This document shows, piece by piece, positions 9,131-53,532 of a stretch of 64,000 nt of DNA (the first letter of the stretch is position 1; the number at the start of each line of letters is the position of its first letter). The translations under genes and the position numbers were made by a program. This stretch comes from Geobacter sp. Its GTDB lineage: Bacteria > Desulfobacterota > Desulfuromonadia > Geobacterales > DSM-12255. A model generated the notes under the pieces. That model saw only the letters and a program-made list of their open reading frames with translations, made no database searches and was not told the origin of the DNA. The stretch lies in assembly GCA_009886125.1 (NCBI GenBank), contig VFJK01000016.1:1-64000 (forward strand). The letters are read 5' to 3'.

Positions 9131-9151
9131 TCAATTTTACAAGGATCCATC

Positions 9152-10405: not shown

Positions 10406-10470
10406 GGGCGCATGGCATGCGCCCTTGATGAAGGCTGAATTGAAGCAGGGCGAACGCCGTTCGCCCCTAC
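10403..10470. repeat. REP-like double hairpin between murA and hisG
   Basis: Two hairpins lie head to tail: GGGCGCATG/CATGCGCCC at 10406-10424 and GGGCGAACG/CGTTCGCCC at about 10448-10466. The outermost bases also pair as a whole (TAGGGGCG at 10403 and CGCCCCTA ending at 10469). This is the build of a bacterial interspersed repeat (a REP pair). It overlaps the last bases of murA and ends just before the hisG ribosome site AAGGTG. Confidence 0.7.
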
Positions 10471-10483
10471 AAGGTGAAAAATC

Positions 10484-12417: not shown

Positions 12418-12440
12418 ATTCCAGCAGGGAGTCATAATCG

Positions 12441-12932
12441 ATGAGAAGACCAGCTGCCGGAATTGCTCTGCTCCTTTGTCTCCATACACCTGCAATTGCG
12501 GCAATGGATGCGATCAAAAACCCGGCAGACAAGATCAGGAATCCTGCCGACAGGATGTATAACCCGGCCACCGATGTAAAAAACCCCGCAGATACCATGT
12601 ACAACCCGGCCACTCAGATCGATAACCCGAATCCCCTGGTACCACCTGTCCAGCCTGCTCCTCCGCCGACAGTGATTGCAAAACCTGCCGAACTGTCGCC
12701 GCTTAAACCGGTCATCCCGCAAAAAAGTTATTACCTGAAAACAGTCAGGGCGTATCTGAATGCCGCTAAAAAAGCCTTTGTTCAGGATGACTATATTACA
12801 TTCATTTCCGTGACCGAAGATGCGCTCCGGCGGATAGAGGCAGGGACCCTGAAGGCCTCCAAAAAATCAAAACAGAAGCTGGTAAAATTCAAGGCGTTTG
12901 GCTATTCACTGCTGGACAAGAGCGCCGAGTAA
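12441..12932 (+). CDS. secreted protein with tandem 7-residue NPA repeats
   Basis: I do not recognise a named family. The 163 aa product starts with a signal peptide (RRPAAGIALLLCLHTPAIAA, cut after about residue 21). From about residue 26 a heptad pattern runs for five or six units, each of the form NPA(D/T)xxx: NPADKIR, NPADRMY, NPATDVK, NPADTMY, NPATQID. A Pro-rich linker follows, then a basic helical tail of about 85 residues. A ribosome site GGGAGT lies upstream, 23 bases after the hisD stop, so it may be read through from the his genes. The repeats differ at many third codon positions, so the pattern looks held by selection on protein. Role unknown; probably periplasmic or surface. Confidence 0.75.
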   Translation: MRRPAAGIALLLCLHTPAIAAMDAIKNPADKIRNPADRMYNPATDVKNPADTMYNPATQIDNPNPLVPPVQPAPPPTVIAKPAELSPLKPVIPQKSYYLKTVRAYLNAAKKAFVQDDYITFISVTEDALRRIEAGTLKASKKSKQKLVKFKAFGYSLLDKSAE

Positions 12933-12998
12933 CAGTCGGGTGAAAAGCTGATGTGCTATTATTGTGGCTTGGGTTTTCAGGGACACGACGAGATCAAT

Positions 12999-13026
12999 AG
13001 GCGGTCGATCGGCCGCCTTTTCTGTT
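12999..13026 (+). terminator. rho-independent terminator
   Basis: AGGCGGTC and GGCCGCCT form a stem with loop GATC, followed by TTTTCTGTTGTT. It lies about 70 bases after the NPA-repeat gene and probably ends the murA-his transcript. Confidence 0.75.
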
Positions 13027-13067
13027 GTTAATTCGCTTTTGCAATCAAGATGACATTTATTCTTGGC

Positions 13068-13102
13068 AAAACCTCCGAGGTTTCAAAAACCTCGGAGGTT
13101 TA
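13068..13102. repeat. perfect palindrome of the AAACCTCCGAGG type
   Basis: AAACCTCCGAGG at 13068-13080 is followed by TTTCAAA and then the reverse complement CCTCGGAGGTTT. It can also be read as repeats of AAACCTC(C/G)GAGGTTT. It sits in a non-coding gap of about 260 bases between convergent genes and has no T tail of its own; it looks like a dispersed repeat. Confidence 0.55.
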
Positions 13103-13191
13103 AAACTGACAACTTGAATGCAACTTGGAATAAGAGATATAGAGAATGTGAGAAGTCTTGAAAGATTTTATGAAGGGGGCGGGTCGTTCGA

Positions 13192-13659
13192 TCAGCCTTT
13201 CTGACGCAGGGCTACTCCCTTTATGAAGCCGCGAAGCAGCTGGTCGGAGCACTCTGTGTAGTGTTTGTGCCCCTGCTTTCTGAACAGCGCGGTCAGTTCA
13301 TGTTTCGAGATCGTGACCCCGGCCAGTTTGAATATCCCGACCAGGTCATCCTCTTTCAGATCGAGCGCGATCCGCAGCTTCTTCAGGATAGCATTTCTGC
13401 TCAACTCGGCAAGCGGCGCTGCTGCCGGAGCCGTGCCCCCTTCCTGCCTCCCCCTTTTGTGGATGATGAGGCCATCCAGGAAAAACCCCATGATCGGGTT
13501 ACTGCACGGGATATAGTCGTCCTCGTCTTCCGTCTTCAGAAAGGCATCGAGCGCGGACTGTCCGACCTCGCGTCCCGCTTCCCTGAATATCTTTATCATG
13601 GTCGCATCGTCAAGCTCCAGCGCATCCCGGATACTGCGTAATATATCGTTATTGGCCAT
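13192..13659 (-). CDS. DUF1456 (YehS-like) protein
   Basis: 155 aa cytoplasmic protein made of two copies of the DUF1456 unit. The first unit starts NNDILRSIRDALELDDATM and the second RNAILKKLRIALDLKEDD; each ends with a short segment of the form SN/SDQ-(I/L)(M/L)-x-F-(L/I)-x-G. E. coli YehS has the same design but no established function; the fold looks like a helical regulatory or nucleic-acid-binding module, which is inference. An Ala-rich linker joins the units. The gene is alone on this strand, tail to tail with the NPA-repeat gene. Confidence 0.85.
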   Translation of the reverse strand: MANNDILRSIRDALELDDATMIKIFREAGREVGQSALDAFLKTEDEDDYIPCSNPIMGFFLDGLIIHKRGRQEGGTAPAAAPLAELSRNAILKKLRIALDLKEDDLVGIFKLAGVTISKHELTALFRKQGHKHYTECSDQLLRGFIKGVALRQKG

Positions 13660-38489: not shown

Positions 38490-40901
38490 TCATTTTCTAA
38501 CCTGTGGCTGATACAAATACTTCTGGAACCCGGCAAAAGCCTTTCCGATCTCTACAGGTGTCTGCCCCAGATCAGCGACGGCATCCGGTATCGAATCGTG
38601 ATACTTAAGCTTCAGTAGTGGTGTCAGCTTCGCCTGATCCAGTTCGTCCACGCCGATCTCCACGTAATGCGCCAGAACGAAGTCTAGGAAGACCTGCAAC
38701 TTGTCATTGAAGTGCTGGGTGATGATGGTCCTTGCCTTTGTTGCCCGTTCTTCTCTGGTAAGTGGTGGCAGGGCATAGGCCACATTAGCCAGCACATCGA
38801 AGAGGTCGCTTCTTTCTGCTTCTATGATCTTCTGCATCTCTGCCAGTTGGTCATGACCGAACCCTTTTTCTGCCAACCCTTCAAGCAGTTTCCTGCGGGT
38901 ATCCGGTCGGCTCCATAACGCCCGTAGCTCTTCCTCGTTCTTGAAAAACTCCGGTAGTCTGCCGAACAGCATCTCCATGAACTGTTGTGACGACATCGGC
39001 GTACCGTCTGGATGCCAGAAACTCGTCATTATCATGTGCTGTATAGTGCGTTCCTTACCGTCGGCGAGTTTTATCTTTGCCTTCTTCTTGCAGACACAAG
39101 GAGACTGACCACACTTCCAGCACGGCATGGGCGGCTCTTTCACGCAGATACAGGGGCGCTCTCCGCATACGGAGCATGGTTCTGGTGGAAGTTTTACGCA
39201 CTCGCAGGGATAACAGCCACACTTAGGGCAGGCTTCAGGTTCAATCGGTTCTCCATCCCATTCAGGATCGTTGAAGTGGTGGTGTGCCTTCACAAAATCG
39301 TAAATGGTGAAGTAGTCCTTACCGTCATAGAGCCTCGTACCCCGTCCTATGATCTGCTTGAACTCGATCATGGAGTTGATCGGGCGCATCAGGACGATGT
39401 TGCGGATGTTACGGGCATCAACGCCGGTGGAGAGTTTCTGTGACGTGGTAAGGATGGTGGGGATGGTCTTTTCGTTGTCCTGAAAGTCTCTGAGGTGCTG
39501 TTCACCCAGTACGCCATCATTGGCCGTTACCCGTTGGCAGTAATTCGGCTCTTTGCTGGTCTTCATCTGGTTGATAAGGTCACGAACTGCCAGGGCATGA
39601 TCTTGGGTAGCGCAGAACACAAGGGTCTTCTCTCTCTGGTCGATCTTCCCCATGAAGATTGCAACCCGCTTATTCTCCCTCTCCTTGATCTCGATGATCT
39701 TGTTGAAGTCCGATTCTTCGTACCGCTTCCCTGTCTCTATCTCACCCTCAATAATCTTGTCGTCAGGTGTATAGACGTAATCATCCAGCGTAGTGGAAAT
39801 CTGCTTCACTCTGAAGGGGGTAAGATAGCCGTCATTGATGCCGTCCTTCAGCGAGTAGATATAGACCGGCTCTCCGAAATAAGCATAGGTATCAATATTG
39901 TCCTTACGCTTGGGGGTAGCGGTAAGACCTAGCTGCACAGCAGGGGCGAAGTAGTCCATGATACTGCGCCAGTTGCTTTCGTCATTGGCACCGCCACGGT
40001 GACACTCATCTATGACAATGAAATCGAAGAAGTCCTTCGGGTACTCGCCGAAATAGGGGCTGGGGTGTCCGTCCTTTGGTGGGCCACTCATGAAGGTCTG
40101 GAAGATGGTGAAGAAGATGCTGCCGTTCTTGGGCACCTTGCCTTTCTTCTTGATCTCGTCAGGGGCAATGCGTACCAGAGCATCTTCGGGAAAGGCTGAA
40201 AAGGCATTGTATGCCTGATCTGCCAGAATGTTACGGTCAGCCAAGAACAGGATACGTGGACGGCGGGTAGGCTCGCTCTCCTTCTTCCAGTCAGTCAGGT
40301 TCCAGCGACTATGAAACAGCTTCCATGCAATCTGGAAGGCGATGAAGGTCTTTCCGGTTCCTGTTGCCAGCGTCAGGAGGATACGGTCTTTGTTATCGGC
40401 GATAGCTTCCAGTACTCGTTCAATGGCTATGTCCTGATAGTAGCGCCCTTGGAAGTAGCCGCCCCGATCCTCGAAAGGTACAGCGGCGAAGCGGTCACGC
40501 CATGCGTTCTGTGTGGCAAAGGTTATGTTCCAGAGGACATCCGGTGTCGGGTACTGCGTCTGATCCCCCTCAACGCCGGTTTCCATGTCAATACAATAGA
40601 TGCCCTGTCCGTTGGTGGCATAGGTAAAGCGTATTTCCAGCTTACCTGCATAATCCTTGGCCTGTCCTACACCTTCCGTCAGCAGTTTATCCCATGCCTT
40701 CGCTTCTACCACCGCCAGTTTAGTGTTGCGATACTCAAGCACATAATCAGCGGTGAAAGCCTTACCCCTCTTGCCGTTGCCTTCGATACGACCAAGAGTG
40801 ATAGGGTACTCACGGCGGATACGGCTGCCTTCGACCACACCCCAGCCAGCAGCTTTCAGGGCGGGGTCAATATATTCGGCTCGGGTTTCGGCTTCGTTCA
40901 T
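38490..40901 (-). CDS. hsdR: type I restriction enzyme, R subunit (EcoEI-like)
   Basis: 803 aa motor and nuclease subunit. A PD-(D/E)xK nuclease region is near residues 52-68 (Asp52, Glu66, Lys68), followed by a superfamily 2 helicase with Walker A ATGTGKTF at 179-186, DECH at 298-301 and QIIGRGTRL in motif VI. At about 558-605 there is a Cys-rich insertion of three units of the form PCxxCGxxPCxC. The C-terminal third is the EcoEI R domain. Last gene of the hsdM-hsdS-AlbA-hsdR operon, 98 bases after the AlbA gene. The frame is intact, so restriction is probably active. Confidence 0.93.
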   Translation of the reverse strand: MNEAETRAEYIDPALKAAGWGVVEGSRIRREYPITLGRIEGNGKRGKAFTADYVLEYRNTKLAVVEAKAWDKLLTEGVGQAKDYAGKLEIRFTYATNGQGIYCIDMETGVEGDQTQYPTPDVLWNITFATQNAWRDRFAAVPFEDRGGYFQGRYYQDIAIERVLEAIADNKDRILLTLATGTGKTFIAFQIAWKLFHSRWNLTDWKKESEPTRRPRILFLADRNILADQAYNAFSAFPEDALVRIAPDEIKKKGKVPKNGSIFFTIFQTFMSGPPKDGHPSPYFGEYPKDFFDFIVIDECHRGGANDESNWRSIMDYFAPAVQLGLTATPKRKDNIDTYAYFGEPVYIYSLKDGINDGYLTPFRVKQISTTLDDYVYTPDDKIIEGEIETGKRYEESDFNKIIEIKERENKRVAIFMGKIDQREKTLVFCATQDHALAVRDLINQMKTSKEPNYCQRVTANDGVLGEQHLRDFQDNEKTIPTILTTSQKLSTGVDARNIRNIVLMRPINSMIEFKQIIGRGTRLYDGKDYFTIYDFVKAHHHFNDPEWDGEPIEPEACPKCGCYPCECVKLPPEPCSVCGERPCICVKEPPMPCWKCGQSPCVCKKKAKIKLADGKERTIQHMIMTSFWHPDGTPMSSQQFMEMLFGRLPEFFKNEEELRALWSRPDTRRKLLEGLAEKGFGHDQLAEMQKIIEAERSDLFDVLANVAYALPPLTREERATKARTIITQHFNDKLQVFLDFVLAHYVEIGVDELDQAKLTPLLKLKYHDSIPDAVADLGQTPVEIGKAFAGFQKYLYQPQVRK

Positions 40902-40999
40902 GCTTACCCCACGATTTGCTTTAAAACACTTATCAGTATGATTTTATTCAATTTATTAATTCGTAAACCCGTTGCAGAGGTTGTGCATTAAAGCACTTA

Positions 41000-42418
41000 T
41001 CAAGCCCAGAACGGCAGATAACGGGCATAACGAGTCGAGTTGGTTTCAGATTCGTCAGCCTTTATCAATCCGGCATCCTTGGCCGCACCTATGACTAGGG
41101 AGACCGTTGCCGCCTTAGACTCCGGCAATCCAAACCGCTCACGAAGAGATTGATTCGACATCCTCTGATTGCTTACATACATAAGGCAACAGTGCTGATA
41201 GCAGGCCCTGACCCGATCCGTTTTGCTCATGGCTGCAAAATCCTGATGAGCAAAAAGCATGGCGGTGGTACGCAATTCGCCGACACGAAAATCAGGAGCA
41301 GGCAACTGATAAACCTCCGCAGCCTTAATAACCTTGTCGATACCGCTGCCCTTTTCCTCGCAAATGCCAAGCCGTCGCATAAGGTCAGCCAAGCGCTCAT
41401 TTAGCGATCTAAATTCGTCAATAAAACGATCAACACTAATCGGAGGTATGCCGGGGTTTGATATTTCTAAACGGTCGGAATACATCTCAATCATCACAGA
41501 TGCTCCAGAAGCCTGATAATCCTGATGCACCAGAGCATTGGCAATTAGCTCACGGATAGCCTGTTTGGGGAACATTTTTACTTCTTCGCGGACGACCTGC
41601 TCAATGCTCCGGTTCTGTGGTGCAGCTGAGTGCACAAATTCAACCAGACTTTCAAAGCCGACTGCATACCCTTTAACCCCAGGCTTATCCTCTCGGGTAT
41701 CTGTCTTATCAATACCTCCGTAAATTACAACTCGGGGAGCCTTTCTGGCTAAAGAAGGAGAAAAAGCATCAAGTCTTTTGGCAAGAAGAATTGCTGCCAG
41801 ATTAGTGATCGTCCAACCGGATGATGTCTTTAGGATCAACTCTTCGCCGCTCAGGCGAGTCAGTACACCATCCCTTGAAGTCGGATACGGTAGGTTGGAA
41901 AGCTCGAAATAAGCCTGAGTATCAAGCAAGGCAATTACTTCATCAGGGCTCACCCCTTTCTTTGCAGGTTGAGAGAACCAGTCCGGCTGTCCTTCAGCAA
42001 ATATGCGGCGTAACTGATCTGGGGTCATGGCAACAAGATCTTCACCGGCTCGCATAAGATATGCACCGTCGAAATCCAATGGATGTCCGACCGGACGGGA
42101 AGGAATCTCGAATACCAGTACTCGCCCAGAGGGGTGCATAAGCTCTATCGTATCAACACGGATATGCAGTTTATCTACAATGCGGGCTTTGATGTCGTTG
42201 AGGTCGGAGGCTGTAGCGAAGGCTTGTGAGCCGACCACCTGACGTGGAGGCTTGTCGGAAACTCCAAACACTAGATGACCACCGCCTTCGTTGGCCAATG
42301 CCACGCAGTAGCGCAGCAACTTGGTAGTGTCGAATTGCTGTTTGGCCTCCTTGAACTCCAGATGTTCGTTTTCTGCCGGAGTAGTCAGCCATTGTTGGAG
42401 AGTGGTAAGGTTTGTCAT
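41000..42418 (-). CDS. AlbA_2/Schlafen-type ATP-binding protein within the RM operon
   Basis: 472 aa. The N-terminal AlbA_2 domain (ENEHLEFKEAKQQFD; ANEGGGHLVFGVSD) and a central HATPase-related part (IRELIANALVHQDYQ; SDRLEISNPG) are the pattern of COG2865-type proteins, usually called ATP-dependent DNA helicase-like or transcriptional regulators. It overlaps hsdS by four bases (ATGA-like), so it is translated with the RM genes. Such genes are seen with type I RM in other genomes and may regulate or assist them; this is inference. Confidence 0.82.
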   Translation of the reverse strand: MTNLTTLQQWLTTPAENEHLEFKEAKQQFDTTKLLRYCVALANEGGGHLVFGVSDKPPRQVVGSQAFATASDLNDIKARIVDKLHIRVDTIELMHPSGRVLVFEIPSRPVGHPLDFDGAYLMRAGEDLVAMTPDQLRRIFAEGQPDWFSQPAKKGVSPDEVIALLDTQAYFELSNLPYPTSRDGVLTRLSGEELILKTSSGWTITNLAAILLAKRLDAFSPSLARKAPRVVIYGGIDKTDTREDKPGVKGYAVGFESLVEFVHSAAPQNRSIEQVVREEVKMFPKQAIRELIANALVHQDYQASGASVMIEMYSDRLEISNPGIPPISVDRFIDEFRSLNERLADLMRRLGICEEKGSGIDKVIKAAEVYQLPAPDFRVGELRTTAMLFAHQDFAAMSKTDRVRACYQHCCLMYVSNQRMSNQSLRERFGLPESKAATVSLVIGAAKDAGLIKADESETNSTRYARYLPFWA

Positions 42419-43620
42419 AGTGCCCCCGTGAAGGCTTGATCCAGCAGCGACTTCTTCAGTGCGTCGAGGGCAGAGAGTTTCTGCTGGTAGATAGATTCGA
42501 GGCGTTGGGTTTCCTCCTGAAGAGAGTCCAAATGTTTAACTATTTCTGACTGTTTATTTAATGCTGGAGCCTTTACTGGCAATAGGCGGAGGTCCTCTAA
42601 GTTTATGCCGACATAGGCCGCACCCTTCTTTACTCCACCAAGCCATTGTTGACTTACGCCTGACCCTATCAGGTAGCAAATAAATAAAGGATTTGCCTGA
42701 GATGAGTCAATAGGCACTACAGCAACTTCTCTGGACACGTTCCAACCAAGCATCTCTTCTGAAACGACAGCTACACCACCAAGCGTCCCACGAACATTTA
42801 CCAGCACCTCCCCACCTTTAAGGATGGTTCGAGAGTAATCACAAGAGAGAGCAGGAGCAATTCTCTTCATTCCTTCGGTGTCGATACGCAACCAACGAAC
42901 GTTACTTGTGCGGAGACATGGCACCCCATCAGAAACTTCCTCACCAAGTTTGATGACTCCGTATGTGATGCCTCGTTTAGTATCACAAAGTTCTGAAAGC
43001 GGTTTCTCCACCCATCCCTCACCACACTGAGTAAAGATGGATTGCAGGTGACTTTCGAAAAGCGCACGGGCATTCTGGAGGTTCTTTTCGGCGTTGGCCT
43101 TGGCGGTAGCGATGCCGTCAAATGCTTCATCGAGGATGCCGACTATGCGCTGCTGTTCGTTGATTGGAAGCAGATCAACAATCACACTTTTCAGCTTTTG
43201 GATTGTGAGAGTATCTACAGTCGCACCATTTCCCTTGTCGAGCTGGTCAAAAAACCTTGGTGATTTAAGCCAGAGATTTATAAAGTTGCTGCGTACATCA
43301 GCAACCTTTTTGAGCCAGAGTACGCTGGCATCCTTGAAATAGAACCTGTCTCCTTCCTTGACAATGTACGAGTTACCAATCGTTCCTATTGCAGTGATCA
43401 TGATGTCACCGCACGTAGGCACTCCATACTTTTCTGCATATTCTGTATATTGATGCTCAGAGATGAAAAGCTCGTTATTAACAAAGCCATCCGAAGCAAG
43501 TTTTGTTATCTCCCGTCCCCTATAAAAAGGAACACCCTCATTTCTCCATTGTGACTGAAGGACTCTTTTACTAGACCCAATATCAAATAGCTCGCACAGT
43601 GCAACCTTTTGCTTGGTCAT
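42415..43620 (-). CDS. hsdS: type I restriction enzyme, specificity subunit
   Basis: 401 aa. Two target-recognition halves: the first about 1-170 with conserved end INEQQRIVGILDEAF, and the second about 205-375 ending in KQSEIVKHLDSLQEE. Each half is followed by a helical spacer that sets the distance between the two half-sites. The target sequence cannot be read from this. Overlaps hsdM and the AlbA gene by four bases on each side. Confidence 0.93.
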   Translation of the reverse strand: MTKQKVALCELFDIGSSKRVLQSQWRNEGVPFYRGREITKLASDGFVNNELFISEHQYTEYAEKYGVPTCGDIMITAIGTIGNSYIVKEGDRFYFKDASVLWLKKVADVRSNFINLWLKSPRFFDQLDKGNGATVDTLTIQKLKSVIVDLLPINEQQRIVGILDEAFDGIATAKANAEKNLQNARALFESHLQSIFTQCGEGWVEKPLSELCDTKRGITYGVIKLGEEVSDGVPCLRTSNVRWLRIDTEGMKRIAPALSCDYSRTILKGGEVLVNVRGTLGGVAVVSEEMLGWNVSREVAVVPIDSSQANPLFICYLIGSGVSQQWLGGVKKGAAYVGINLEDLRLLPVKAPALNKQSEIVKHLDSLQEETQRLESIYQQKLSALDALKKSLLDQAFTGAL

Positions 43621-45071
43621 AGCAACGCCCTGATGTTCGCTAACACTTCTGCACTCTCAGCATCCAGTACGGCGATCTCGTCCATGATCTCTTGCGGGGT
43701 GCGGTGGGTGATTACCTCGCCGCCGTCAGGGTTCTTCACTGACAGGTCATAGGTGGTCTGGTCGATACCGGCGACATCAACACTCCAACTTTTGGGGGAG
43801 TCAGCACAGGTCTTTTGCAGTTCGACGAACTCTGCCATGTCAGCATCATTGAGGGGGTTGGTCTTGCCCATGTTGCGACCGGGATCAAGGGAGTAGTACC
43901 AGACCTTGCGGGTAGGTGCACCCTTCTCGAAGAACAGCACCACGGTCTTGACTCCTGCACCTTGGAACGTACCCCCAGGACAATCAAGGACAGTGTGCAG
44001 GTTACAGCTTTCCAGTAGCAGCTTCCGCAGACTCACCGAAGCATTGTCAGTATTGGAGAGGAAGGTATTTTTGATAACCACGCCAGCCCTACCACCAGCC
44101 CTGAGCATCTTTATGAAGTGTTGCAGGAAGAGGAAGGCTGTCTCGCCAGTACGGATAGGAAAGTTCTGCTGTACCTCCTTGCGCTCTTTACCGCCGAAGG
44201 GTGGATTAGCAAGGATGATGTCGTAACGGTCTTTCTCCTGAACGTCAGCAAGGTTCTCTGCCAGTGTGTTGGTGTGGATGATGTTGGGTGCCTCTATGCC
44301 ATGAAGAATCATATTCATAATGGCGATGACATAAGCCAGCGACTTCTTCTCCTTGCCGTAGAAGGTGCATTCCTGAAGGGTCTTCAAGTCGTCGGTGGTC
44401 AGGTTGGGTCTATCCTTCAGGTAATCGAAAGCCTCACACAAGAAGCCTGCGGAACCTACCGCGCCGTCATAGATACGCTTGCCGATCTCTGGCTTCACCA
44501 CCTGAACAATGGCACGGATCAAAGGGCGTGGGGTGTAATACTCGCCGCCGTTCCTGCCAGCATTACCCATGTTCTTGATCTTGGCTTCGTAGAGGTGGGA
44601 CAGTTCGTGTTTCTCTGTCTGGGAGCGAAAGCGTAGTTCGTCTATGTGGTCGATGATCTCCCGCAGGTTGTAGCCGCTGTGAATCTTGTTCTTGATCTCG
44701 CCGAAAATCTGACCGATCTTGTATTCGATGGTGTTGGGGCCACTGGCCTTCTGCTTGAAGCCGTGGAGGTAGGGGAACAGTTTACGATCTACAAAGTCCC
44801 GCAGATCATCGCCGGTCAGTGCCTTGTTATGGTCGAGCTTGCCGTCTCCGGTCTTAGGTGCTGCCCAACTTTCCCAGCGATAAGGCTCGTCAAGTATGAA
44901 GGTGTACTGCTTCCCCTCAAGGTCGGCCTCCATAGCCTTGTCCTGCTCCAGACCGTCAAGGTATTTCAGGAACAGCAACCACGAAGTCTGTTCTGCATAA
45001 TCAAGTTCACTACCGCAACCGGCCTCTTTCCAGAGAACGTCATCTATATTCTTGAATGCCTGTTCAAACAT
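43617..45071 (-). CDS. hsdM: type I restriction enzyme, modification subunit
   Basis: 484 aa N6-adenine methylase. Domain order: HsdM N-terminal, then the methylase with motif I in YDGAVGSAGFLCEAF and catalytic NPPFGGKERKEV. Motif I has DGAVGSAG in place of the usual DPACGSGG, within family variation. First gene of the operon; the promoter should lie in the 127-base gap at 45072-45198. Confidence 0.95.
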   Translation of the reverse strand: MFEQAFKNIDDVLWKEAGCGSELDYAEQTSWLLFLKYLDGLEQDKAMEADLEGKQYTFILDEPYRWESWAAPKTGDGKLDHNKALTGDDLRDFVDRKLFPYLHGFKQKASGPNTIEYKIGQIFGEIKNKIHSGYNLREIIDHIDELRFRSQTEKHELSHLYEAKIKNMGNAGRNGGEYYTPRPLIRAIVQVVKPEIGKRIYDGAVGSAGFLCEAFDYLKDRPNLTTDDLKTLQECTFYGKEKKSLAYVIAIMNMILHGIEAPNIIHTNTLAENLADVQEKDRYDIILANPPFGGKERKEVQQNFPIRTGETAFLFLQHFIKMLRAGGRAGVVIKNTFLSNTDNASVSLRKLLLESCNLHTVLDCPGGTFQGAGVKTVVLFFEKGAPTRKVWYYSLDPGRNMGKTNPLNDADMAEFVELQKTCADSPKSWSVDVAGIDQTTYDLSVKNPDGGEVITHRTPQEIMDEIAVLDAESAEVLANIRALL

Positions 45072-45198: not shown

Positions 45199-46092
45199 TC
45201 ACTCCATATTTTTCAATCTGAAAAAGTCAAGTGCAGCAATTTCCTTAAATTTATCACAAATCGGCTCATTAAATTCACGCAAATACTTTGCAACCGCTTC
45301 GTTACCGAGCAATCTTTTCAAATATGCCTGCATAGATGTCATGTCTATCATTGCTGTTCCATACTGCTCCTTCAATGAGCCTATTTCACTGGACAAGGCA
45401 AGACTCTCTTCTTCAAGACGAGCCTGGCGCGCCAGAATTGCCGGAGTTTCCTTTTTGGGTTTGCCATTATTGACAAGCTGATGTGTGGGCGTTGCTTCCA
45501 GAAGTGCCTTGGCATAGCTGGAGGTGAACTTATTCTGGTCATTCATCAGCATGGCAGCGGTAATTTGCCGAGGAGCTTTCATTTTTCTCAACACCCTGAA
45601 AACCGGTTCCGGCACAGCCTTATCCTTCAGTAAATCGACAGCCTCCGGGCAGATACCACCAAGCAGATACCTCTTGTTTCTGATTGTTCGGATATCAAGA
45701 TTCAAAGCACTGGCAAGCTTATCTTCAGAAACTCCTGATTGCACAGCCTTCACAATCATACGATGTTCCTGAATTGCTGAAAGTCGATTGATGTATTTAT
45801 TGTAAGTGTAGGTCTCATCATCAGTGGAGATAAGGCAGAAGACTCGCTCCATTCCCAATTCCTTCAGAGCCATTATACGCAAATGTCCATCTAGCAGAAG
45901 ATATCCTTCTCCTTTCTTAACCGGAGCGACCACAGGGGCTTCAATAAGTCCCACTTCCCGTATGGAAGAAAGAACCTGAGCATACTTTCTACCTTGCCTT
46001 ACATAAGTAGAAATAATTTTTGTGGGGAGCAGCTCCTCCACGGCAAGTTCTATCAGATTTTCCTGGAATCCCTGTTTAATTCTGTTTGCCAT
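45199..46092 (-). CDS. ParB/RepB-like partition family protein
   Basis: 297 aa. An N-terminal ParB-type nuclease-like fold (LLPTKIISTYVR; YLLLDGHLRIMALKELG) is followed by a helix-turn-helix (SEDKLASALNLDIRTIRNKR) and a C-terminal RepB-type domain. Chromosomal or plasmid ParB acts with ParA; no ParA is near. It is the third gene of a tightly packed recombinase-ParB-RepB set, five bases after the ParB-like gene, and points to a recurring cassette rather than to plasmid partition. Confidence 0.85.
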   Translation of the reverse strand: MANRIKQGFQENLIELAVEELLPTKIISTYVRQGRKYAQVLSSIREVGLIEAPVVAPVKKGEGYLLLDGHLRIMALKELGMERVFCLISTDDETYTYNKYINRLSAIQEHRMIVKAVQSGVSEDKLASALNLDIRTIRNKRYLLGGICPEAVDLLKDKAVPEPVFRVLRKMKAPRQITAAMLMNDQNKFTSSYAKALLEATPTHQLVNNGKPKKETPAILARQARLEEESLALSSEIGSLKEQYGTAMIDMTSMQAYLKRLLGNEAVAKYLREFNEPICDKFKEIAALDFFRLKNME

Positions 46093-46097
46093 AGCCG

Positions 46098-46964
46098 TTA
46101 CCTTTTCAAAATATCCGTTACATGTAGAGGAATTTCATTCATGCCGACGGCTTTTAGTTGATTGGTAAAATGGACATCATTCAATAACTGGCGAAGGACC
46201 ATGGACGTGTAGTCCAAAACATGCTTAATATAGTTTGATTGAGCCAGTAACCGCTTCTTCTCCTTAGCGCCCTTTTCATAGGCTGCAATCAAATCTTCTG
46301 CGGAAACTTTGGCATTATTACGTTGTGGAGTTGAAAGCCCTTTACCGTAGTGTTGACGACGAGAGATAATTTTTTGCGCAGCAACAAGCTTTTTCCCGGA
46401 CAATGCTCCCGATTCATACGCTTCTGTCAAGGCTCTCTGTACGGCTGTGTCATCTTCCGAAGCTATGTTCAGCGCCTGATATAAAGGGATTCGTCCCTTT
46501 TCTACTGCATTGACCAAGTATTCCTCTCCCTGTTCGAGCAGGCGGATGATGCCTCGAATATAGTCTTTACCAAGATTGGTCTTGGCAGCAATGGCATCAT
46601 CTTCGTAACCCTGACTTTTCAGATACTTGATGCTTTGAAGGAGTTCCAAAGCATTACCATTGCGCCGGGCGATATTCTCCACCAGACTCATAATATGCGC
46701 ATCTTCTTCACTTACTTCGCGAACGATAGCGGGGATTTCCGTTTCTCCAGCACTAACAAAGGCCTCAAGCCTGCCCTGCCCACAAACAAGGTCATATTTC
46801 TTGCCATTTTTAGCATCTTGCCTGGGAGTTACCGTTATGGGCCGTTTCAAGCCGACGCTCAGAATGTTTTGCCGTATTTCTTCGGCAATAATTTGATTGC
46901 GTACCCTTGGATTCAAGATGTGAATATTTTCAATGGGAATAAGTACTATTGCCCCTGGATCCAT
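46098..46964 (-). CDS. ParB-like protein
   Basis: 288 aa. ParB N-domain with IPIENIHILNPRVRNQIIAE, VCGQGRLEAFVSAGETEIPA and IMSLVENIARRN (the ParB box II form), then a helix-turn-helix (DDAIAAKTNLGKDYIRG). It overlaps the end of the recombinase by 35 bases and precedes the RepB-type gene by five. Likely DNA-binding partner of the recombinase; ParA is absent. Confidence 0.88.
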   Translation of the reverse strand: MDPGAIVLIPIENIHILNPRVRNQIIAEEIRQNILSVGLKRPITVTPRQDAKNGKKYDLVCGQGRLEAFVSAGETEIPAIVREVSEEDAHIMSLVENIARRNGNALELLQSIKYLKSQGYEDDAIAAKTNLGKDYIRGIIRLLEQGEEYLVNAVEKGRIPLYQALNIASEDDTAVQRALTEAYESGALSGKKLVAAQKIISRRQHYGKGLSTPQRNNAKVSAEDLIAAYEKGAKEKKRLLAQSNYIKHVLDYTSMVLRQLLNDVHFTNQLKAVGMNEIPLHVTDILKR

Positions 46965-48561
46965 CTTCTACCGCCTTATCTAGGGAAATGTTAATGCTCA
47001 AATTAAGCAAGTAATCCAAAGTGTCAGTACGAAAGCTGTCCAGAAACCCTACATTGTCTTCCGAGAGCCTTATCTGTTCATATGAACATTCCAACGCGGG
47101 CAGGATATAGTAATCGTGGATTGCTTCATTACGGGTGTCCATGCGTACCGCTACGGTGATGTCAGGATGAAGGCCACTATCAAAACGGATTTTCCAGCGC
47201 CGGGTTCCGGCTGGCGTGGTAAAGCAACGGCTGATGACAACCGAAATACATAGATTGTAATTCAATTCCAACAGGCCGCTTTCCGGATCTATGGGAATTT
47301 GTCTGCCGCAAAGATTCTCTATGCAGCGAACAACATCAGCCACAATCTCGGCATGGAGGGCGCGCAACCGTTGGTTTATGGCAACATACTGATAGTCGCG
47401 CTCTGGGGTATAGCCGATCATCCGATAGGCCCGCAAAAGTCCTCCGAAGCGTGTGCGAATCATACTGCTAGGAGGCAAAAAATCAGCTTCGTCAATGATT
47501 AGCGCGGAAAGGCGTCCCTGCCTGGCATATAAGTCCCGTAGCCCCTGCAACAGTTCTTCGTCGGTAGTCTTCTTGTTCCGCTCCCGGTAAATCCCTTGGA
47601 CAGTATAGAAACGCTCCACATCCACTATGGGTTCAAAGGCGTGATCCTTGCGGACCCACTTGCTTTCCGGATTCGGCTTAGCTTTGCTCTTCATCTTGCC
47701 CGATGTGCGGTTGAATAAGTTGTTGCCGACATATTTTTCATTGGTGAGTACTTCGCACACAGTCCCTCGTGACCATGGACGGCCAAAATGGTTTTTCACT
47801 CCTTGTGCGTTCAGTTGCGTCGCAATTTCAGTTTCACTTATCCCGGCAATGAACTGGTCATAAATCCAGAGCACAATCCCACGTTCTTCGTCTGAGCCCG
47901 GCATCAGAATCACCCGCTCGGTGAGCAGGCTTTTACGCTGACCCATTGCCAATTCCTGCTTGGGTCTACCGGTTTCGTCCAGCAACATGCGCCGTAGCCC
48001 AAAACCCGCCACACCTCCCTGCCTGAATCCTTTTGTCACCAGGTTGCATTGTCCCACCCACACCTTCTGTGAAAGCTGTCTGCAATAGTCGCTGGCGCTT
48101 TCGTCTCGAAGCAGCGTCATAATACGGTCGGCAATGTTGCTGGTTAACGTAAGTGGCTTTTCGCACGACTGGCACAAAACGTTTTTGCGTTCCAGTCGCA
48201 TGCGGTGATAATCAGCCTCACGACTGTCTACAAACCGTCCCCAACGGCTTTCATCCAGATACAAGACAATGTTGAACGCACTGCGTCCTTGCTCCACATC
48301 ATCAATCAAGGTCTGAAACTGTTCCCGCTTTTCCGTGTTTATTCCGCTAACCCCCAGGTCAGCATAGGTTTTGATAATTTCAATGCCATATTGAGCGGCA
48401 TAGGCACGTATTGCTCGTTCCTGATTTTCCGGCGACTCCACCTGCAATTCTGTGGACATACGGATATACATGGCCCCCTTCAGGCGAAGGCTCATTATTT
48501 GACTTGGAGTATATGCCGTTCCCGTTTGCAGCATTTTCTGCGTATCTCCTTGTTTACACAT
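46930..48561 (-). CDS. large serine recombinase
   Basis: 543 aa. The catalytic domain has YIRMSTELQVESPENQ with Ser at about 36 and DLGVSGINTEKREQFQ; then a Recombinase domain (GISETEIATQLNAQGVKNHFG) and a zinc-ribbon-type C-terminal region. The start ATG at 48561 has GGAG upstream; an internal ATG at residue 10 follows AAGGAG. It is the first gene of the three-gene set with ParB and RepB proteins. It may move this set or a larger segment; the target site is unknown. Confidence 0.9.
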   Translation of the reverse strand: MCKQGDTQKMLQTGTAYTPSQIMSLRLKGAMYIRMSTELQVESPENQERAIRAYAAQYGIEIIKTYADLGVSGINTEKREQFQTLIDDVEQGRSAFNIVLYLDESRWGRFVDSREADYHRMRLERKNVLCQSCEKPLTLTSNIADRIMTLLRDESASDYCRQLSQKVWVGQCNLVTKGFRQGGVAGFGLRRMLLDETGRPKQELAMGQRKSLLTERVILMPGSDEERGIVLWIYDQFIAGISETEIATQLNAQGVKNHFGRPWSRGTVCEVLTNEKYVGNNLFNRTSGKMKSKAKPNPESKWVRKDHAFEPIVDVERFYTVQGIYRERNKKTTDEELLQGLRDLYARQGRLSALIIDEADFLPPSSMIRTRFGGLLRAYRMIGYTPERDYQYVAINQRLRALHAEIVADVVRCIENLCGRQIPIDPESGLLELNYNLCISVVISRCFTTPAGTRRWKIRFDSGLHPDITVAVRMDTRNEAIHDYYILPALECSYEQIRLSEDNVGFLDSFRTDTLDYLLNLSINISLDKAVEDGSRGNSTYSH

Positions 48562-48600: not shown

Positions 48601-48864
48601 ATGTCTAGAAAGATTCTGTGGCAGATTTGCCACAAAAACGAACTCAACAATGGCGAGCTAACGAGATATATTGTGAAGATGCTACGAGAGCAGGGGATTA
48701 CGACAAAGCAGGCGGCTCGTGACCTCAACATACCTGTCGAACGGGCACGGAACTGGTATTATCGGGATACTGGAATGACAGCTCTTGATTTGCTAAGGAT
48801 GATGCAGACGTATGAGTGTCTCAGGCAGGCAGTTGAAAGTTCATTGTCACTCGAATCCAGTTGA
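48601..48864 (+). CDS. small helix-turn-helix protein
   Basis: 87 aa, divergent from the recombinase with only 39 bases between start codons. The sequence REQGITTKQAARDLNIPVERARNWYYRDTGM is a helix-turn-helix. It probably regulates the recombinase operon or its own promoter. An open frame continues upstream over the recombinase gene but ATG 48601 is the first plausible start. Confidence 0.7.
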   Translation: MSRKILWQICHKNELNNGELTRYIVKMLREQGITTKQAARDLNIPVERARNWYYRDTGMTALDLLRMMQTYECLRQAVESSLSLESS

Positions 48865-48986: not shown

Positions 48987-49304
48987 TCAAGCCCTATCAG
49001 TAAGCTCTTTTTTTTCTTCACTTAAAATAATGTTCATGATCTGAGATCTCGCTCTAGCATGCTGTGGAGAGCTAAAGCCACTCTTAAGTTTTACAATTAT
49101 ATTATCCACTGACGGCCCAAACCCCTCCTCCCGGCCACTAATTATATTCATCATATGAATAATAAATGAGCCCGGAGGATCAACCAAATTCCTCTCATAT
49201 TTTGAAATCTCACCTTGCGCCCGGCCCAGAAGTTTAGCAAACTCTTTCTGAGTTAAGCAGCACAATTTACGAGCTTTCTTAACAATATCCCCAGACTGTT
49301 TCAT
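48987..49304 (-). CDS. XRE-family regulator of the QueC-like operon
   Basis: 105 aa. The helix-turn-helix reads LTQKEFAKLLGRAQGEISKYER. It is divergent from the OGG-like gene, with two palindromes in the gap of about 110 bases, so it is the likely repressor of that operon. The rest of the protein has no recognised ligand-binding domain. Confidence 0.85.
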   Translation of the reverse strand: MKQSGDIVKKARKLCCLTQKEFAKLLGRAQGEISKYERNLVDPPGSFIIHMMNIISGREEGFGPSVDNIIVKLKSGFSSPQHARARSQIMNIILSEEKKELTDRA

Positions 49305-49312
49305 GAAAACAA

Positions 49313-49368
49313 TATTCCGTATTTTGAGGAATAAACGCGAAGTAAATAATATTCATTTATTGAATATT
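49313..49368. promoter_or_regulatory. two operator-like palindromes before the OGG-like gene
   Basis: TATTCC-(9)-GGAATA at 49313-49333 and AATATTCA-(5)-TGAATATT at 49348-49368 (exact arms) lie in the divergent gap. Both share the TATTC/GAATA half, as expected for one XRE-type dimer binding two sites. Confidence 0.5.
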
Positions 49369-49417
49369 TTGTCAAGATGAGTTATGTATTGTAAAATTAA
49401 ATAATTCGGTGATTGTC

Positions 49418-50236
49418 ATGGCTCAAGCAGTTTTAGGAATAATAGCTGGAGAAGTAAGGGAGTTATTTCTTCCAGACCCAAGTAAAAAGCTAATGGACGG
49501 AGTTGTTTGGGGAGAGTTTGATGTTTTTTTTACCCCTGCATTCTGGGCCGTCCAAGCGTGGCTTGACAGTGACCAGAATAAGTACAGCTTATACAGGCTG
49601 GGGAATTCACTTCAGGAGGAGGTTGCAGCTTGTCTCTTAGGTGGACACGGAATACCTTCAGAAGTTGGATTGGCTGCTTACAGGAGAGTAAAAGAAAAAG
49701 GATTACTGGCTAAAGAATCACTCACCATGGAAGAGGTAGCTGAAGTATTAAAGGAGCCGCTTAAAGTTAATGAGCGACAAATCCACTACCGATTTTGGAA
49801 ACAAAAATCTCGTTATCTGTGCGAATCACTGAAAGCTATCTCAAAAGGCGTACCTTCTTACGATGACCATAAAGCTTTTCGAAACTGGTTAGTAGAAAAT
49901 CTACAGGGCGTCGGACCAAAGACAGCATCGTGGATAACCCGTAATTGGCTATCGAGCGATGATGTAGCTATAATTGATATCCATATCCAGCGGGCGGGGT
50001 TACATGCAGGTTTCTTTGAACAAGGCTTTTCCGTCGAGAAAAATTACTACCTGATGGAAGATCGATTTTTGCAATTTGCCTCCGCTCTCAACATAAAGCC
50101 AGCAATGCTAGATACGCTTATATGGCGTCAGATGAAAGATTTTAGTTCCACCCCTCTCAGAGTAAAATCGAATCATAATTACCCTATTCAACAGCCCTCC
50201 CTGTTCAACCACTATCCCCATGCGGCAGCATGCTAG
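49418..50236 (+). CDS. OGG-like helix-hairpin-helix DNA glycosylase
   Basis: 272 aa. The HhH-GPD core is GVGPKTASWITRNWL with the catalytic Lys at about 168, and IIDIHIQRAG with the catalytic Asp at about 187, as in 8-oxoguanine glycosylase/lyases. The N-terminal 120 residues are not the classic OGG1 part. OGG-like genes occur in type IV CBASS next to QueC-like and TGT-like genes, which makes the context here notable. Start ATG at 49418 with GGTGA; a GTG nine bases upstream is possible. First gene of the operon. Confidence 0.82.
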   Translation: MAQAVLGIIAGEVRELFLPDPSKKLMDGVVWGEFDVFFTPAFWAVQAWLDSDQNKYSLYRLGNSLQEEVAACLLGGHGIPSEVGLAAYRRVKEKGLLAKESLTMEEVAEVLKEPLKVNERQIHYRFWKQKSRYLCESLKAISKGVPSYDDHKAFRNWLVENLQGVGPKTASWITRNWLSSDDVAIIDIHIQRAGLHAGFFEQGFSVEKNYYLMEDRFLQFASALNIKPAMLDTLIWRQMKDFSSTPLRVKSNHNYPIQQPSLFNHYPHAAAC

Positions 50237-50331
50237 TCATCAACGCATATCTTATTTACAACAAATTAAAAAACCATTAAGGTGCTGAAATAATATCTGT
50301 CAATAATTACATTTGTTGATTAGGGGGACTT

Positions 50332-50667
50332 ATGTCTGGTGGGGATTTTTCAGGTGGAGGCGGAGGTCCTGACGAAGTATTTGATTGTGCTTCAATATTT
50401 GAAAAAACGATCCTTAATTCGCCAAAACCTGATGTTATCTCTAAATTAAAAGTGGGAGACGTTTTAACTCTCGAATTAAAGCAATATGATGAGAAAAAAA
50501 GCCTAGTTGCAGTTACAAGTGATAATGAGGTTGCTGGCTCAATAACTTCAGCTACATTATCCAAAATAAAAAATTGCATAGATCAAGGTTTTAGTTATAT
50601 CTCAATAGTAGAAAGCATTGAAGGCGGAAGATGCACTGTTCTTTTAAGGCCGGAAACGGCATTATGA
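50332..50667 (+). CDS. small protein with Gly-rich N-terminus
   Basis: 111 aa. It begins MSGGDFSGGGGGPDEVFDC, a flexible Gly-rich tail, followed by a compact beta-rich part (SKLKVGDVLTLELKQYD; VAGSITSATLSKI; GGRCTVLLRP) that may resemble the HIRAN or another small beta barrel. I have an impression of similar proteins near QueC-like genes but cannot check. It overlaps the next gene by four bases (ATGA), so it is translated with it in step. The GGGGGA ribosome site is strong. A Gly-rich exposed N-terminus suits a protein whose N-terminus is modified by a partner enzyme; that is inference. Confidence 0.65.
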   Translation: MSGGDFSGGGGGPDEVFDCASIFEKTILNSPKPDVISKLKVGDVLTLELKQYDEKKSLVAVTSDNEVAGSITSATLSKIKNCIDQGFSYISIVESIEGGRCTVLLRPETAL

Positions 50668-51887
50668 TCTCCATTGCCGGAGGTGCATATTACGAATACT
50701 GCATTTCACCAGAGTGGAAGTATCTATATGGCTCAGGCTTGCGGGCCGCTGCTGCGATTTCTGCTTTATGTAATAAAATCAGCCTCTATGCCTATGTCGA
50801 TGAAGCATCTTCAGATCAGGTTTGTTCGTTAGCTGACGCATTTGGAATAACTGTAATACCTCAAACTTCAACCAAGACTATAAGATTCAATTATTTCCAT
50901 GGGCTGTCCGTTCCAGTAATAACCCCTTCGCTTCATGCGATCACTAAGCAAAAACCTTTGGTTGTAAACGACAATGTAGTCTTAAGATTTGGAATGCTTG
51001 AAGGAGAGGCGGTCGTACATGGCGATAAGGTTGTCTATGACCCCCAGGCTGCAGAACAGATAGCACCTTTCCATTACAACGGATCTACCGCTAAACAATT
51101 GGCCATTGTGGCAAATATGAGGGAATGCCGGATGCTAACCGGCAAAGACGACTTTTTGGAGATTATAAAAGATCTTTTCAGCAACCATGCTTGTGATGTT
51201 GCCGTAATCAAACGTGGCAGTTTAGGGACTTGCGTAGTAACAAAAGCTAATAGCGACCATATAGAAACAATACCGGCATTTAAAACTGATAGGGTCTGGC
51301 CTATAGGTTCGGGAGATATTTTTTCTGCAATCTTTTCTTTTTACTGGGGAGTCCAGAACTGCGACCCAGTGAGTGCTGCAAAATCCGCTTCGCTAGCTAC
51401 TGCTACATATTGTTCAAACCAAGTACTACCGATTCCCGAAGACTTTATGTCGAACTTCTCAAAACTTACTCCAATTGCTCCTAAAGTTAAGATCGAGACA
51501 GACAAGAAACTAATCTACTTGGCAGGACCTTTTTTCAATCTAAGTCAGCGTTGGTTGGTAGAAGAAGCCCGAAATTCGTTGATGCATCAAGGAATGAAGG
51601 TCTTTTCTCCACTCCATGATGTTGGAAGGGGAACGGGCCGTGATGTTGCCCCTGCCGATCTAAATGGACTCGACGAGTCAGCAGTGGTTCTTGCACTTGT
51701 CGATGGATTGGACCCTGGAACAATCTTCGAAATAGGTTATGCAAGAGCCAAAAACATTCCAGTAATCTGTTTCGTCCAGACTGAAAAGGAAGAAGACTTG
51801 AAAATGATGGTGGGGAGTGAATGCAAAATGGTCAACGACTTCACAACAGCAATTTATCAAACTGCATGGACATTCCTAGAACTATGA
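50664..51887 (+). CDS. PfkB-type kinase fused to nucleoside 2-deoxyribosyltransferase
   Basis: 407 aa. Residues 1-265 are a PfkB/ribokinase-type fold with the anion-hole/catalytic motif GSGD at 215-218; the N-terminal motif is atypical. Residues 283-407 are a nucleoside 2-deoxyribosyltransferase-like domain with LIYLAGPFF and the D-x5-GT-x2-E-x-GYA catalytic block (Glu356). The fusion suggests a step that takes apart or rebuilds a nucleoside or nucleotide. The substrate is unknown, and a deazapurine is possible given the QueC-like neighbour. It overlaps the genes on both sides by four bases. Confidence 0.8.
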   Translation: MISIAGGAYYEYCISPEWKYLYGSGLRAAAAISALCNKISLYAYVDEASSDQVCSLADAFGITVIPQTSTKTIRFNYFHGLSVPVITPSLHAITKQKPLVVNDNVVLRFGMLEGEAVVHGDKVVYDPQAAEQIAPFHYNGSTAKQLAIVANMRECRMLTGKDDFLEIIKDLFSNHACDVAVIKRGSLGTCVVTKANSDHIETIPAFKTDRVWPIGSGDIFSAIFSFYWGVQNCDPVSAAKSASLATATYCSNQVLPIPEDFMSNFSKLTPIAPKVKIETDKKLIYLAGPFFNLSQRWLVEEARNSLMHQGMKVFSPLHDVGRGTGRDVAPADLNGLDESAVVLALVDGLDPGTIFEIGYARAKNIPVICFVQTEKEEDLKMMVGSECKMVNDFTTAIYQTAWTFLEL

Positions 51888-52480
51888 AAAAATCAATACT
51901 ATTATCCGGCGGTATCGATTCTGTTGCTTTGTGTTATTGGCTTCGCCCTGATGTTGCAATAACCATTGACTACGGTCAGTTGCCAGCACCTGCAGAAATT
52001 GAAGTGTCCAGGAAGATTTGCAAAGAATTAGACATCCCGCATGAGGTGGTTTCCGTGGATTGTCGTCGTCTTGGCAGTGGCGACTTGGCTGGGACAGAAT
52101 CTTTAGGGATATCACCGTCACGGGAATGGTGGCCGTACCGAAACCAGCTTTTAGCAACCATTGCTGCTATGAAATCAATTGAGCTTGGGGTTGGTGAAAT
52201 AATTTTCGGTTCTGTTAAGTCTGATAGTTTCCACGCTGACGGAACTTTCGCTTTTTACACTCAACTTAATAGTTTATTAAAGATGCAAGAAGGAGGATTA
52301 ACGGTATCTGTCCCGGCTATCACAATGTCGTCAGGAGAACTCGTTCTTGCTTCGGGCATACCATCCTCACTGTTGTGCTGGGCGCACTCTTGCCATATTA
52401 GTGATGTTGCATGCGGCAATTGTAGGGGTTGCTTCAAACATCAGTCAGTAATGCATGAAATCGGATATGGATTTTATTGA
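51884..52480 (+). CDS. QueC-like 7-cyano-7-deazaguanine synthase homologue
   Basis: 198 aa, shorter than QueC (about 230). The PP-loop motif is SGGIDS at 8-13; a WPYRNQLL block stands where QueC has VPGRN; the zinc site is Cys170, 177, 180, 183 (C-x6-C-x2-C-x2-C; QueC has C-x8-C-x2-C-x2-C). QueC makes preQ0 from 7-carboxy-7-deazaguanine with ammonia and ATP. Here no queD, queE, folE or tgt is near, so the product is probably used for a separate purpose. Type IV CBASS carries a QueC-like protein (Cap9). Overlaps both neighbours. Confidence 0.85.
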   Translation: MKKSILLSGGIDSVALCYWLRPDVAITIDYGQLPAPAEIEVSRKICKELDIPHEVVSVDCRRLGSGDLAGTESLGISPSREWWPYRNQLLATIAAMKSIELGVGEIIFGSVKSDSFHADGTFAFYTQLNSLLKMQEGGLTVSVPAITMSSGELVLASGIPSSLLCWAHSCHISDVACGNCRGCFKHQSVMHEIGYGFY

Positions 52481-53156
52481 ACTGGAAAGCCCTGAACGTA
52501 GGGCACATTTGATACCCTTCCGAACTTTTCGCTACCCTGTCACTGAAATTATCTATCTTTCCCCTCCTTCCCAAAATGAAGCAGTTGACTTTTTTCGAGT
52601 AGTCAAATCGAGGTCAACGCGAAGGGACTTTGGCCAAATTTCCCTACAGCAACTATCGAAACTATTTTGGTTCAGCGCTAAAACATCCTTGGAAATTAAT
52701 TTGGATGAAGGTCACAAATGGTATCACAAGCCCTCACCTTCTGGGGGAGGCCGTCATCCTATTGACCACATCATATTTCGTTATGAAAGGGATAAATGGA
52801 TCGCCTTTCTTTATGATTCAATCGCCCATGCTCTTGGCAAGCTGAAGATAGATAGCGCCGACATTGGTTTTTGGATAGACGATTTATTTAGTACGCTGGG
52901 GATTAATGCGACCACCATTGTTTGGAACGTAGCGCAGTTTCATCGATCTACAAGTGTTTACAAGAATGCATCTGCCTTAATCTATCGTGATGAGGGAGCG
53001 ATACAAGGAACATTTGGTTTGGTTGCTGAAGCACTAAATTTAAATTTTTGCACAATTGGAGTTTCTGGAGAACCCACCATTTCCAAACTATTAATGTCAA
53101 GAGAGTTAATAAGGGGAATCGGAGGGTTTTATATTGGTTCTAAAAATGCGCAATAA
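52455..53156 (+). CDS. SagB/nitroreductase-like flavoprotein
   Basis: 233 aa. The RSTRRDFGQISLQQLSKLFWFS block and the KPSPSGGGRHPI segment are the mark of SagB-type nitroreductase-like oxidases, which use FMN and, in peptide natural products, oxidise azolines. No peptide precursor or cyclodehydratase is nearby. It begins inside the QueC-like gene (26-base overlap) and ends the operon. It may oxidise the deazapurine or a protein adduct; unproved. Confidence 0.75.
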   Translation: MKSDMDFIELESPERRAHLIPFRTFRYPVTEIIYLSPPSQNEAVDFFRVVKSRSTRRDFGQISLQQLSKLFWFSAKTSLEINLDEGHKWYHKPSPSGGGRHPIDHIIFRYERDKWIAFLYDSIAHALGKLKIDSADIGFWIDDLFSTLGINATTIVWNVAQFHRSTSVYKNASALIYRDEGAIQGTFGLVAEALNLNFCTIGVSGEPTISKLLMSRELIRGIGGFYIGSKNAQ

Positions 53157-53411: not shown

Positions 53412-53532
53412 GGGCAGAGCTGATAGCTGGGTCCTGCGCAACGGCAGGTTATGAATCCCGTCAGGTCCGGAAGGAAGCAGCGGCAGTAACTGATACGTGT
53501 GCCGCGGGGTAACCCAGCTATCATTTCTGCCC
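53412..53532 (+). ncRNA. ffs: signal recognition particle RNA (4.5S/small SRP RNA)
   Basis: The apical domain signature GGTCCGGAAGGAAGCAGC is present, with the matching CAGGT/AGGTC and GTGCCGCGGGG strands, and a long end stem GGGCAGA...TCTGCCC closes the RNA. It lies directly before dnaX, as in relatives. The island ends just upstream, so its promoter region may have been changed by the insertion. Confidence 0.95.

Follow-up and report, generated by a model that had tools for sequence, protein, structure and literature searches.

The stretch analyzed here (the window: 64,000 nucleotides of Geobacter sp. contig VFJK01000016.1) raises the question of why, at positions 48987–53156, a QueC-like enzyme is encoded together with a DNA glycosylase, a small tailed protein, a PfkB-like kinase fused to a nucleoside 2-deoxyribosyltransferase (PfkB-NDT) and a SagB-like protein. 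We propose, by analogy with the QueC relatives Cap9 and QatC and with a probability of about 0.6, that this mobile operon serves anti-phage defense and that its QueC-like enzyme would use ATP to join 7-deazaguanine to the N-terminus of the small protein, whose domain is predicted to have the HIRAN fold. The features of the locus, in window coordinates and with model scores against their cut-offs, are as follows.

48987–49304, minus strand: divergent helix-turn-helix (HTH) gene of the XRE type, common to the module copy of Geobacter H2geo (HTH_3, 25.7 bits; cut-off 23)
49348–49368: palindrome AATATTCA-n5-TGAATATT in the divergent intergenic region, with 8-nt arms and a 5-nt spacer
49418–50236, plus strand: OGG-like helix-hairpin-helix (HhH) DNA glycosylase (Ogg-HhH, 66.7 bits; cut-off 27; match to 3fhf, E=4.2e-12)
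50332–50667, plus strand: small protein with an MSGGD N-terminus, a disordered Gly-rich tail and a predicted HIRAN-fold domain, the proposed base acceptor
50664–51887, plus strand: PfkB-NDT fusion (Nuc_deoxyrib_tr, 65.2 bits; cut-off 28.8)
51884–52480, plus strand: QueC-like PP-loop enzyme, a predicted N-terminal ligase (QueC, 68.8 bits; cut-off 22)
52455–53156, plus strand: SagB-like flavoenzyme homologue, accessory (TIGR03605, 55.0 bits; cut-off 78.4)
46930–48561, minus strand: serine recombinase, neighbor of the module (Recombinase, 77.4 bits; Resolvase, 60.1 bits)

The QueC-like protein (198 aa) has HxDG where canonical QueC has YPDC, and YPDC occurred in none of 120 homologues among the matches listed. 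Its score with TIGR00364 was 58.5 bits, below the cut-off of 150.3. Each of the four zinc cysteines is kept in 18/18 rows, in agreement with the intact zinc site described from the sequence alone. Among the structures compared (a scope that also holds for the small protein below), its predicted model fitted Cap9 best, with the guanine-reading Asp kept. Relatives are numerous, 4625 of 8000 scored candidates having E≤1e-20 in a count by score, not individually checked. The host genome encodes a canonical QueC elsewhere (243 bits, with YPDC), and QueD was present in 3/3 genomes tested, the window's own host included. As canonical QueC is encoded elsewhere, the host queuosine pathway does not need the QueC-like protein; simple supply of that pathway had been named as a possible explanation, and the candidate role of lone host QueC was ruled out by this second gene, found with the Pfam model.

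Type IV of the cyclic-oligonucleotide-based anti-phage signaling systems (CBASS) combines the QueC-like Cap9, Cap10, which resembles tRNA-guanine transglycosylase (TGT), and a cGAS/DncV-like nucleotidyltransferase (CD-NTase), together with an OGG-like gene. In the accessible parts of the literature, a nucleobase is shown to be attached to a protein N-terminus only in type IV CBASS and proposed to be so in Qat, the QueC relatives acting on MGGS in the former and, likely, on MGTS in the latter. The small protein of the present operon has the corresponding properties of a partner in such conjugation systems, namely a small residue 2, a Gly motif and a disordered tail. Its N-terminus is near-invariant, mostly MSGS and sometimes MGGS; among the matches listed, residue 2 was Ser in 118, Gly in 1 and Cys in 1, and Gly3 was present in 120/120. 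The tail is predicted to be disordered (predicted local distance difference test scores of 51–58) and is followed by a domain that can be assigned to HIRAN by predicted fold, with identities of just 4–6% to HLTF HIRAN chains and 15% to lp_0118 (3k2y); any binding to DNA ends by this protein is putative. The Pfam HIRAN model matched 0/46 members at E≤1, and a PDB sequence search gave nothing convincing.

The operon thus shares with type IV CBASS a Cap9-like QueC enzyme, an OGG-like protein and a partner with an MGGS-like N-terminus. It differs in the predicted HIRAN-fold acceptor, in PfkB-NDT, in the SagB-like protein often found in other copies, and in HxDG instead of the YxDC of Cap9. As the sequence-only reading had stated of cyclase, TGT and effector, no match to a CD-NTase, a cyclic-nucleotide effector or Cap10/TGT was obtained among the window operon proteins. 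With qatABCD it has in common a QueC-fold enzyme encoded next to a partner that has a disordered N-terminal tail and a highly conserved start (MGTS in QatB). However, the QueC-like protein is devoid of the N- and C-terminal extensions of QatC and of its two substrate-site Thr residues, the acceptor is predicted to be HIRAN-fold and not helical, and QatA ATPase and QatD TatD nuclease found no match among the window operon proteins.

The small protein, PfkB-NDT and QueC-like genes form a triad, which occurred in that order in 32/32 loci counted, from Escherichia coli to haloarchaea. As all loci keep this order, the arrangement is more than chance, and the set is not confined to this genome. Within 6.5 kb of the triad we observed OGG in 24 of the 32 loci and SagB-like in 17; Dam and dGTPase were each present in 6, Mrr-type nucleases in 3 and Vut_1 transporters in 2. 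Three haloarchaeal plasmids carried the triad alone among the counted families. By family, OGG, Dam, Mrr and dGTPase would be DNA- or deoxynucleotide-directed partners. The Mrr-type gene follows the QueC-like gene (L029:10303–11385, L031:9582–10304 and L039:9582–10301) and in L031 and L039 occupies the place of the SagB-like gene, with a 4-base overlap. Vut_1, annotated as queuosine salvage, directly follows the SagB-like gene in L030 (10308–10847) and L036 (10272–10847); these two related Rhodobacterales plasmids represent one lineage and lend weak support to a queuosine-type link. The Dam gene of L014 is interrupted by an insertion sequence.

Left out before this count were duplicates (L001, L003, which equals L013, L008, L021–L024, L026, L047, L048 and L050–L052), L016 and L017, which are broken by insertion sequences, L040 at a contig edge, the sister systems L032 and L054 described below, and L055–L088, which match part of the NDT region only. 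Near-identical pairs kept within the 32 are L013/L014, L030/L036, L031/L039, L041/L042 and L043/L044. In L016 and L017, both from E. coli, the insertion sequences cut the small-protein/PfkB-NDT part and the rest is missing; both truncated copies lie near a HEPN gene, and that of L017 also near a NACHT gene. A second, diverged pair of small-protein and PfkB-NDT genes was seen near the main triad in L038 (2253–3784) and L045 (9666–11128).

The spread is sporadic. The QueC-like gene was found in 3/395 genomes of the phylum and 4/141 of the order, and a single-sequence scan of genome contigs gave 2 loci only. With the window QueC-like protein as tblastn query, 24 plasmid records were matched, 20 of them listed; a Citrobacter QueC-like query matched 37, 24 of them at ≥42% identity, including all 20 from the window query. 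A PfkB-NDT query also matched 37 plasmid records: the same 24, each with an adjacent QueC-like gene, and 13 others, in which it adjoins the TIR-TGT gene of the sister system described below. Matches were present in 22/5426 E. coli genomes, of which 18 carry at least 80% of a four-gene stretch, all on the chromosome; the three intact four-gene copies inspected each occupy a different island or prophage. The operon of E. coli KMi029 is 100% identical to that of a Citrobacter wastewater plasmid (L003). Phages were considered as carriers and rejected: the small protein had no match in phage records and QueC matches there were at most ∼30% identical. A search of viral contigs with the SagB-like protein found none.

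Among the remaining enzymes, the OGG-like protein belongs to the Ogg-HhH family by its Pfam score and by a Lys and an Asp column, kept in 24/24 OGG homologues, which we take to be catalytic from alignment with 3fhf; the HhH glycosylase with Lys/Asp residues that had been described is thereby upheld. For the described kinase–glycosidase fusion, the glycosidase part scores above its cut-off and the PfkB domain is sub-threshold (20.8 bits; cut-off 25.8); the Asp of GSGD/GTGD and the NDT Glu are invariant in 15 rows. The SagB-like protein, described as a flavoprotein of that kind, shares with SagB/McbC azoline dehydrogenases its TIGR03605 similarity and a Tyr invariant in 17/17 rows, whose role is presumably that known from McbC. 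It differs in that the score lies below the curated cut-off and that the window operon gave no YcaO-type match, and a PDB sequence search with it gave nothing convincing.

A sister QueC system also has a tailed partner. In L032 (Rhizobium sophoriradicis; 3700–8062) and L054 (a contig of a viral collection; 8956–13362), the gene set codes for a PfkB whose NDT region is degenerate, for a TIR-TGT fusion and OGG, for another QueC-like enzyme and for a TIR protein of the ThsB type. The TIR-TGT protein of L032 matches Cap10 (E=6e-8). PADLOC matches the QueC and TGT parts of this set, PfkB and OGG being unmatched, and its QueC-like protein shares only 23% identity with that of the HIRAN-type system. 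The TIR protein begins with MGGGSSGSW or MGGSSTGGW (MGG[GS]), the longer frame of L054 having earlier possible starts, and residue 2 was Gly in 118/120 TIR homologues among the matches listed (840 at E≤1e-10). The MGG[GS] start alongside these parts indicates that a similar tail is present on a TIR protein of a QueC operon, and the set looks like a type IV CBASS-like one with the TIR protein in the place of the CD-NTase. The 13 other plasmid records matched by PfkB-NDT all had the TIR-TGT fusion and the tailed TIR protein; 11 of them were checked with the Citrobacter query and the QueC-like gene was present in 11/11.

Defense genes were examined in loci picked as promising. GajA and GajB (PADLOC models, 851 and 503 bits) lie ∼2 kb from the triad in L013, ThsB (PADLOC) lies within 3 kb of it in L002 and L027 and ∼7 kb off in L031, and dGTPase (PADLOC) is near it in L003 and L018. 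The expected co-occurrence with defense islands is thus seen near some copies, as Gabija, Thoeris and dGTPase genes.

These data suggest the following course. Met would be removed from the small HIRAN-fold protein, freeing an N-terminal Ser or Gly. To this terminus the QueC-like enzyme, using ATP, would couple a 7-deazaguanine carboxylate (host 7-carboxy-7-deazaguanine, CDG), in analogy with Cap9 and QatC. PfkB-NDT may handle the sugar on the base or release the base from a nucleotide, and the SagB-like enzyme, where present, might finish or oxidize the (Ser) adduct. The tagged protein could then act as a sensor or switch governing the OGG glycosylase, Dam, Mrr nuclease and dGTPase partners. 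The sequence-only reading had placed the operon in deazaguanine- or nucleotide-based defense, acting on DNA or on protein; a deazaguanine-based defense acting on protein is the best fit to the acceptor-like motif, the Cap9 fit, the defense neighbors and the TIR sister system, and is a prediction. For the OGG-like protein, the suggested removal of a base from DNA may still apply.

Several observations weigh against this proposal. Residue 2 is mostly Ser, whereas it is Gly in both known acceptors. The small protein of L029 has Ser at position 3, and in L038 (Azospirillum brasilense) the frame before the main PfkB-NDT gene has the domain without an MSGS/MGGS start, being either a counter-example or a decayed copy. 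By Foldseek E-value, QueC 2pg3 comes just ahead of Cap9, and the substrate could differ from CDG, since the base-stacking Tyr of Cap9 is His here. Given the low identity to HLTF and the failure of the Pfam HIRAN model, DNA binding by the small protein is no more than putative. Of 10 neighbors tested, 2 were unmatched and 1 had a weak E1-E2 match, and the chosen loci had no random-locus control. Finally, the QueC-like protein alone had a clear match in PADLOC-DB 2023, which accordingly does not list the operon as a system.

Alternative explanations have to be set against this evidence. The published one comes from PMC13329287 (2026), which, in the text accessible, groups these QueC proteins as ‘cluster 4’ and proposes purine salvage from the PfkB-NDT neighbor; the window protein fits the cluster by its SGGxDS, YGQ and CH(x)5CxxCxGCxK signature and by that neighbor. 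PfkB-NDT would interconvert nucleosides and the QueC-like enzyme would amidate or modify a purine for metabolism, for which the conserved Asp and Glu columns of both domains are suitable. We regard this as very unlikely, given the sporadic spread (3/395 phylum genomes, and 18/5426 E. coli with most of the operon) on plasmids and islands, the defense genes near some loci, and the constant presence of a partner whose N-terminus is near-invariant, which salvage leaves unexplained, as it does OGG, Mrr and dGTPase. The least improbable alternative, though still an unlikely one, is a system acting on DNA bases, where OGG cuts an unusual base out of phage DNA or removes a tag of the host itself, NDT/PfkB recycle the nucleoside, the QueC-like enzyme processes the base and the HIRAN protein guides the set to DNA ends. 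The 24 OGG loci with their Lys and Asp, the predicted HIRAN fold, and Dam in 6/32 and Mrr in 3/32 loci are consistent with it. However, 8/32 loci have no OGG within 6.5 kb, including the three triad-only haloarchaeal plasmids (downstream sequence is short in two of the 8, L004 and L049), the window operon proteins gave no TGT- or DpdA-type match, and the N-terminal motif is left unexplained.

That motif would find a use without any base if the Gly/Ser tail were the core peptide of a system resembling those for ribosomally synthesized and post-translationally modified peptides, with the QueC-like protein as ATP-dependent cyclodehydratase and the SagB-like protein as azoline oxidase. Ser2 was present in all 17 loci with SagB-like; among those without it, 7 had Ser (L018, L031, L035, L039, L041, L042 and L045) and 6 had Gly or Cys (Fisher P=0.0029; 30/32 loci, leaving out L038, which has no motif, and L049, which ends 74 bases past QueC). 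On the tree the contrast comes down to 2–3 independent pairs, too few to establish the link; the association is suggestive, not independent. As SagB-like was not found in 14/31 loci (L049 excluded; L004 has just 1.9 kb downstream), the window operon has no YcaO-type, transporter or protease match, and the base-reading Asp is retained in the QueC-like protein, we consider this reading improbable. A toxin–antitoxin-like or plasmid-maintenance module with no specific anti-phage role, to which the XRE regulator and the plasmid and island setting might point, is the least probable of all, as several enzymes keep a fixed order across bacteria and archaea, defense systems lie near some loci and no toxin-like pair was recognized in the window operon. 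Speculative and rather doubtful is an extension of the tagging proposal itself, in which a nucleotide is built on the protein: 7-deazaguanine on Ser2, an oxazole from the SagB-like enzyme and phosphorylated deoxyribose from PfkB-NDT, the HIRAN domain carrying this dGMP mimic to DNA ends, where OGG would read or erase it and the mimic would gate dGTPase or nuclease partners, with one QueC module serving CD-NTase, QatB, HIRAN and TIR acceptors.

The setting of the locus is that of a transferable unit. The described five genes in a row with a divergent XRE gene were all recovered, as were the overlaps linking the last four: with the likely starts (OGG, ATG at 49418 or alternatively GTG at 49409; small protein, 50332; PfkB-NDT, 50664; QueC-like, 51884; SagB-like, 52455) they measure 4, 4 and 26 bases, and 95 bases separate the OGG and small-protein genes. 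Of the two palindromes described, one is clear and is likely a regulator site; the second, read by eye, has arms of merely 6 nt. The module lies between the serine recombinase and a signal recognition particle RNA gene (53425–53522), and its G+C content is 41.8%, compared with 53.1% in the window's first 40 kb. When 20 kb around the module were compared with Geobacter H2geo (L005), 49009–53145 matched at 80.6% and nothing else did, the XRE gene lying mostly within this stretch; two pieces within 49487–52780 match L096, a further genome of the order, at ∼70%. As DNA similarity is confined to the module, XRE to SagB-like was likely transferred as a single unit, and the adjacent recombinase is possibly tied to its mobility. 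At 45199–48561, two RepB/ParB-type genes and the recombinase adjoin the module and resemble a mobile element core. An 87-aa reading frame, HTH-like by eye (48601–48864), separates the recombinase from the XRE gene. Further upstream, at 38490–45071, HsdR, HsdS and HsdM genes make up a type I restriction set, in which a Schlafen/AlbA gene separates R from S. Among the other copies, the small proteins of L013 and L014 both begin with MSGSGG.

The text of PMC13329287, as far as accessible, contains no occurrence of OGG, SagB, glycosylase, nitroreductase or HIRAN, and in a literature search that was thin on subscription journals and without supplements the acceptor and the whole operon were undescribed. 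What appears new is the proposed acceptor, the partners and a likely role that differs from purine salvage, the predicted chemistry being of a known kind. If true, N-terminal nucleobase tagging would gain a third form after type IV CBASS and Qat, one that is widespread and richer, with an acceptor whose fold is of a nucleic-acid-binding type and with enzymes acting on the base–sugar bond. The operon being present in some E. coli strains, the purpose of the tag could be tested directly in a common laboratory species, and the sister system with its TIR protein suggests that such a tag may be a general switch in immunity.

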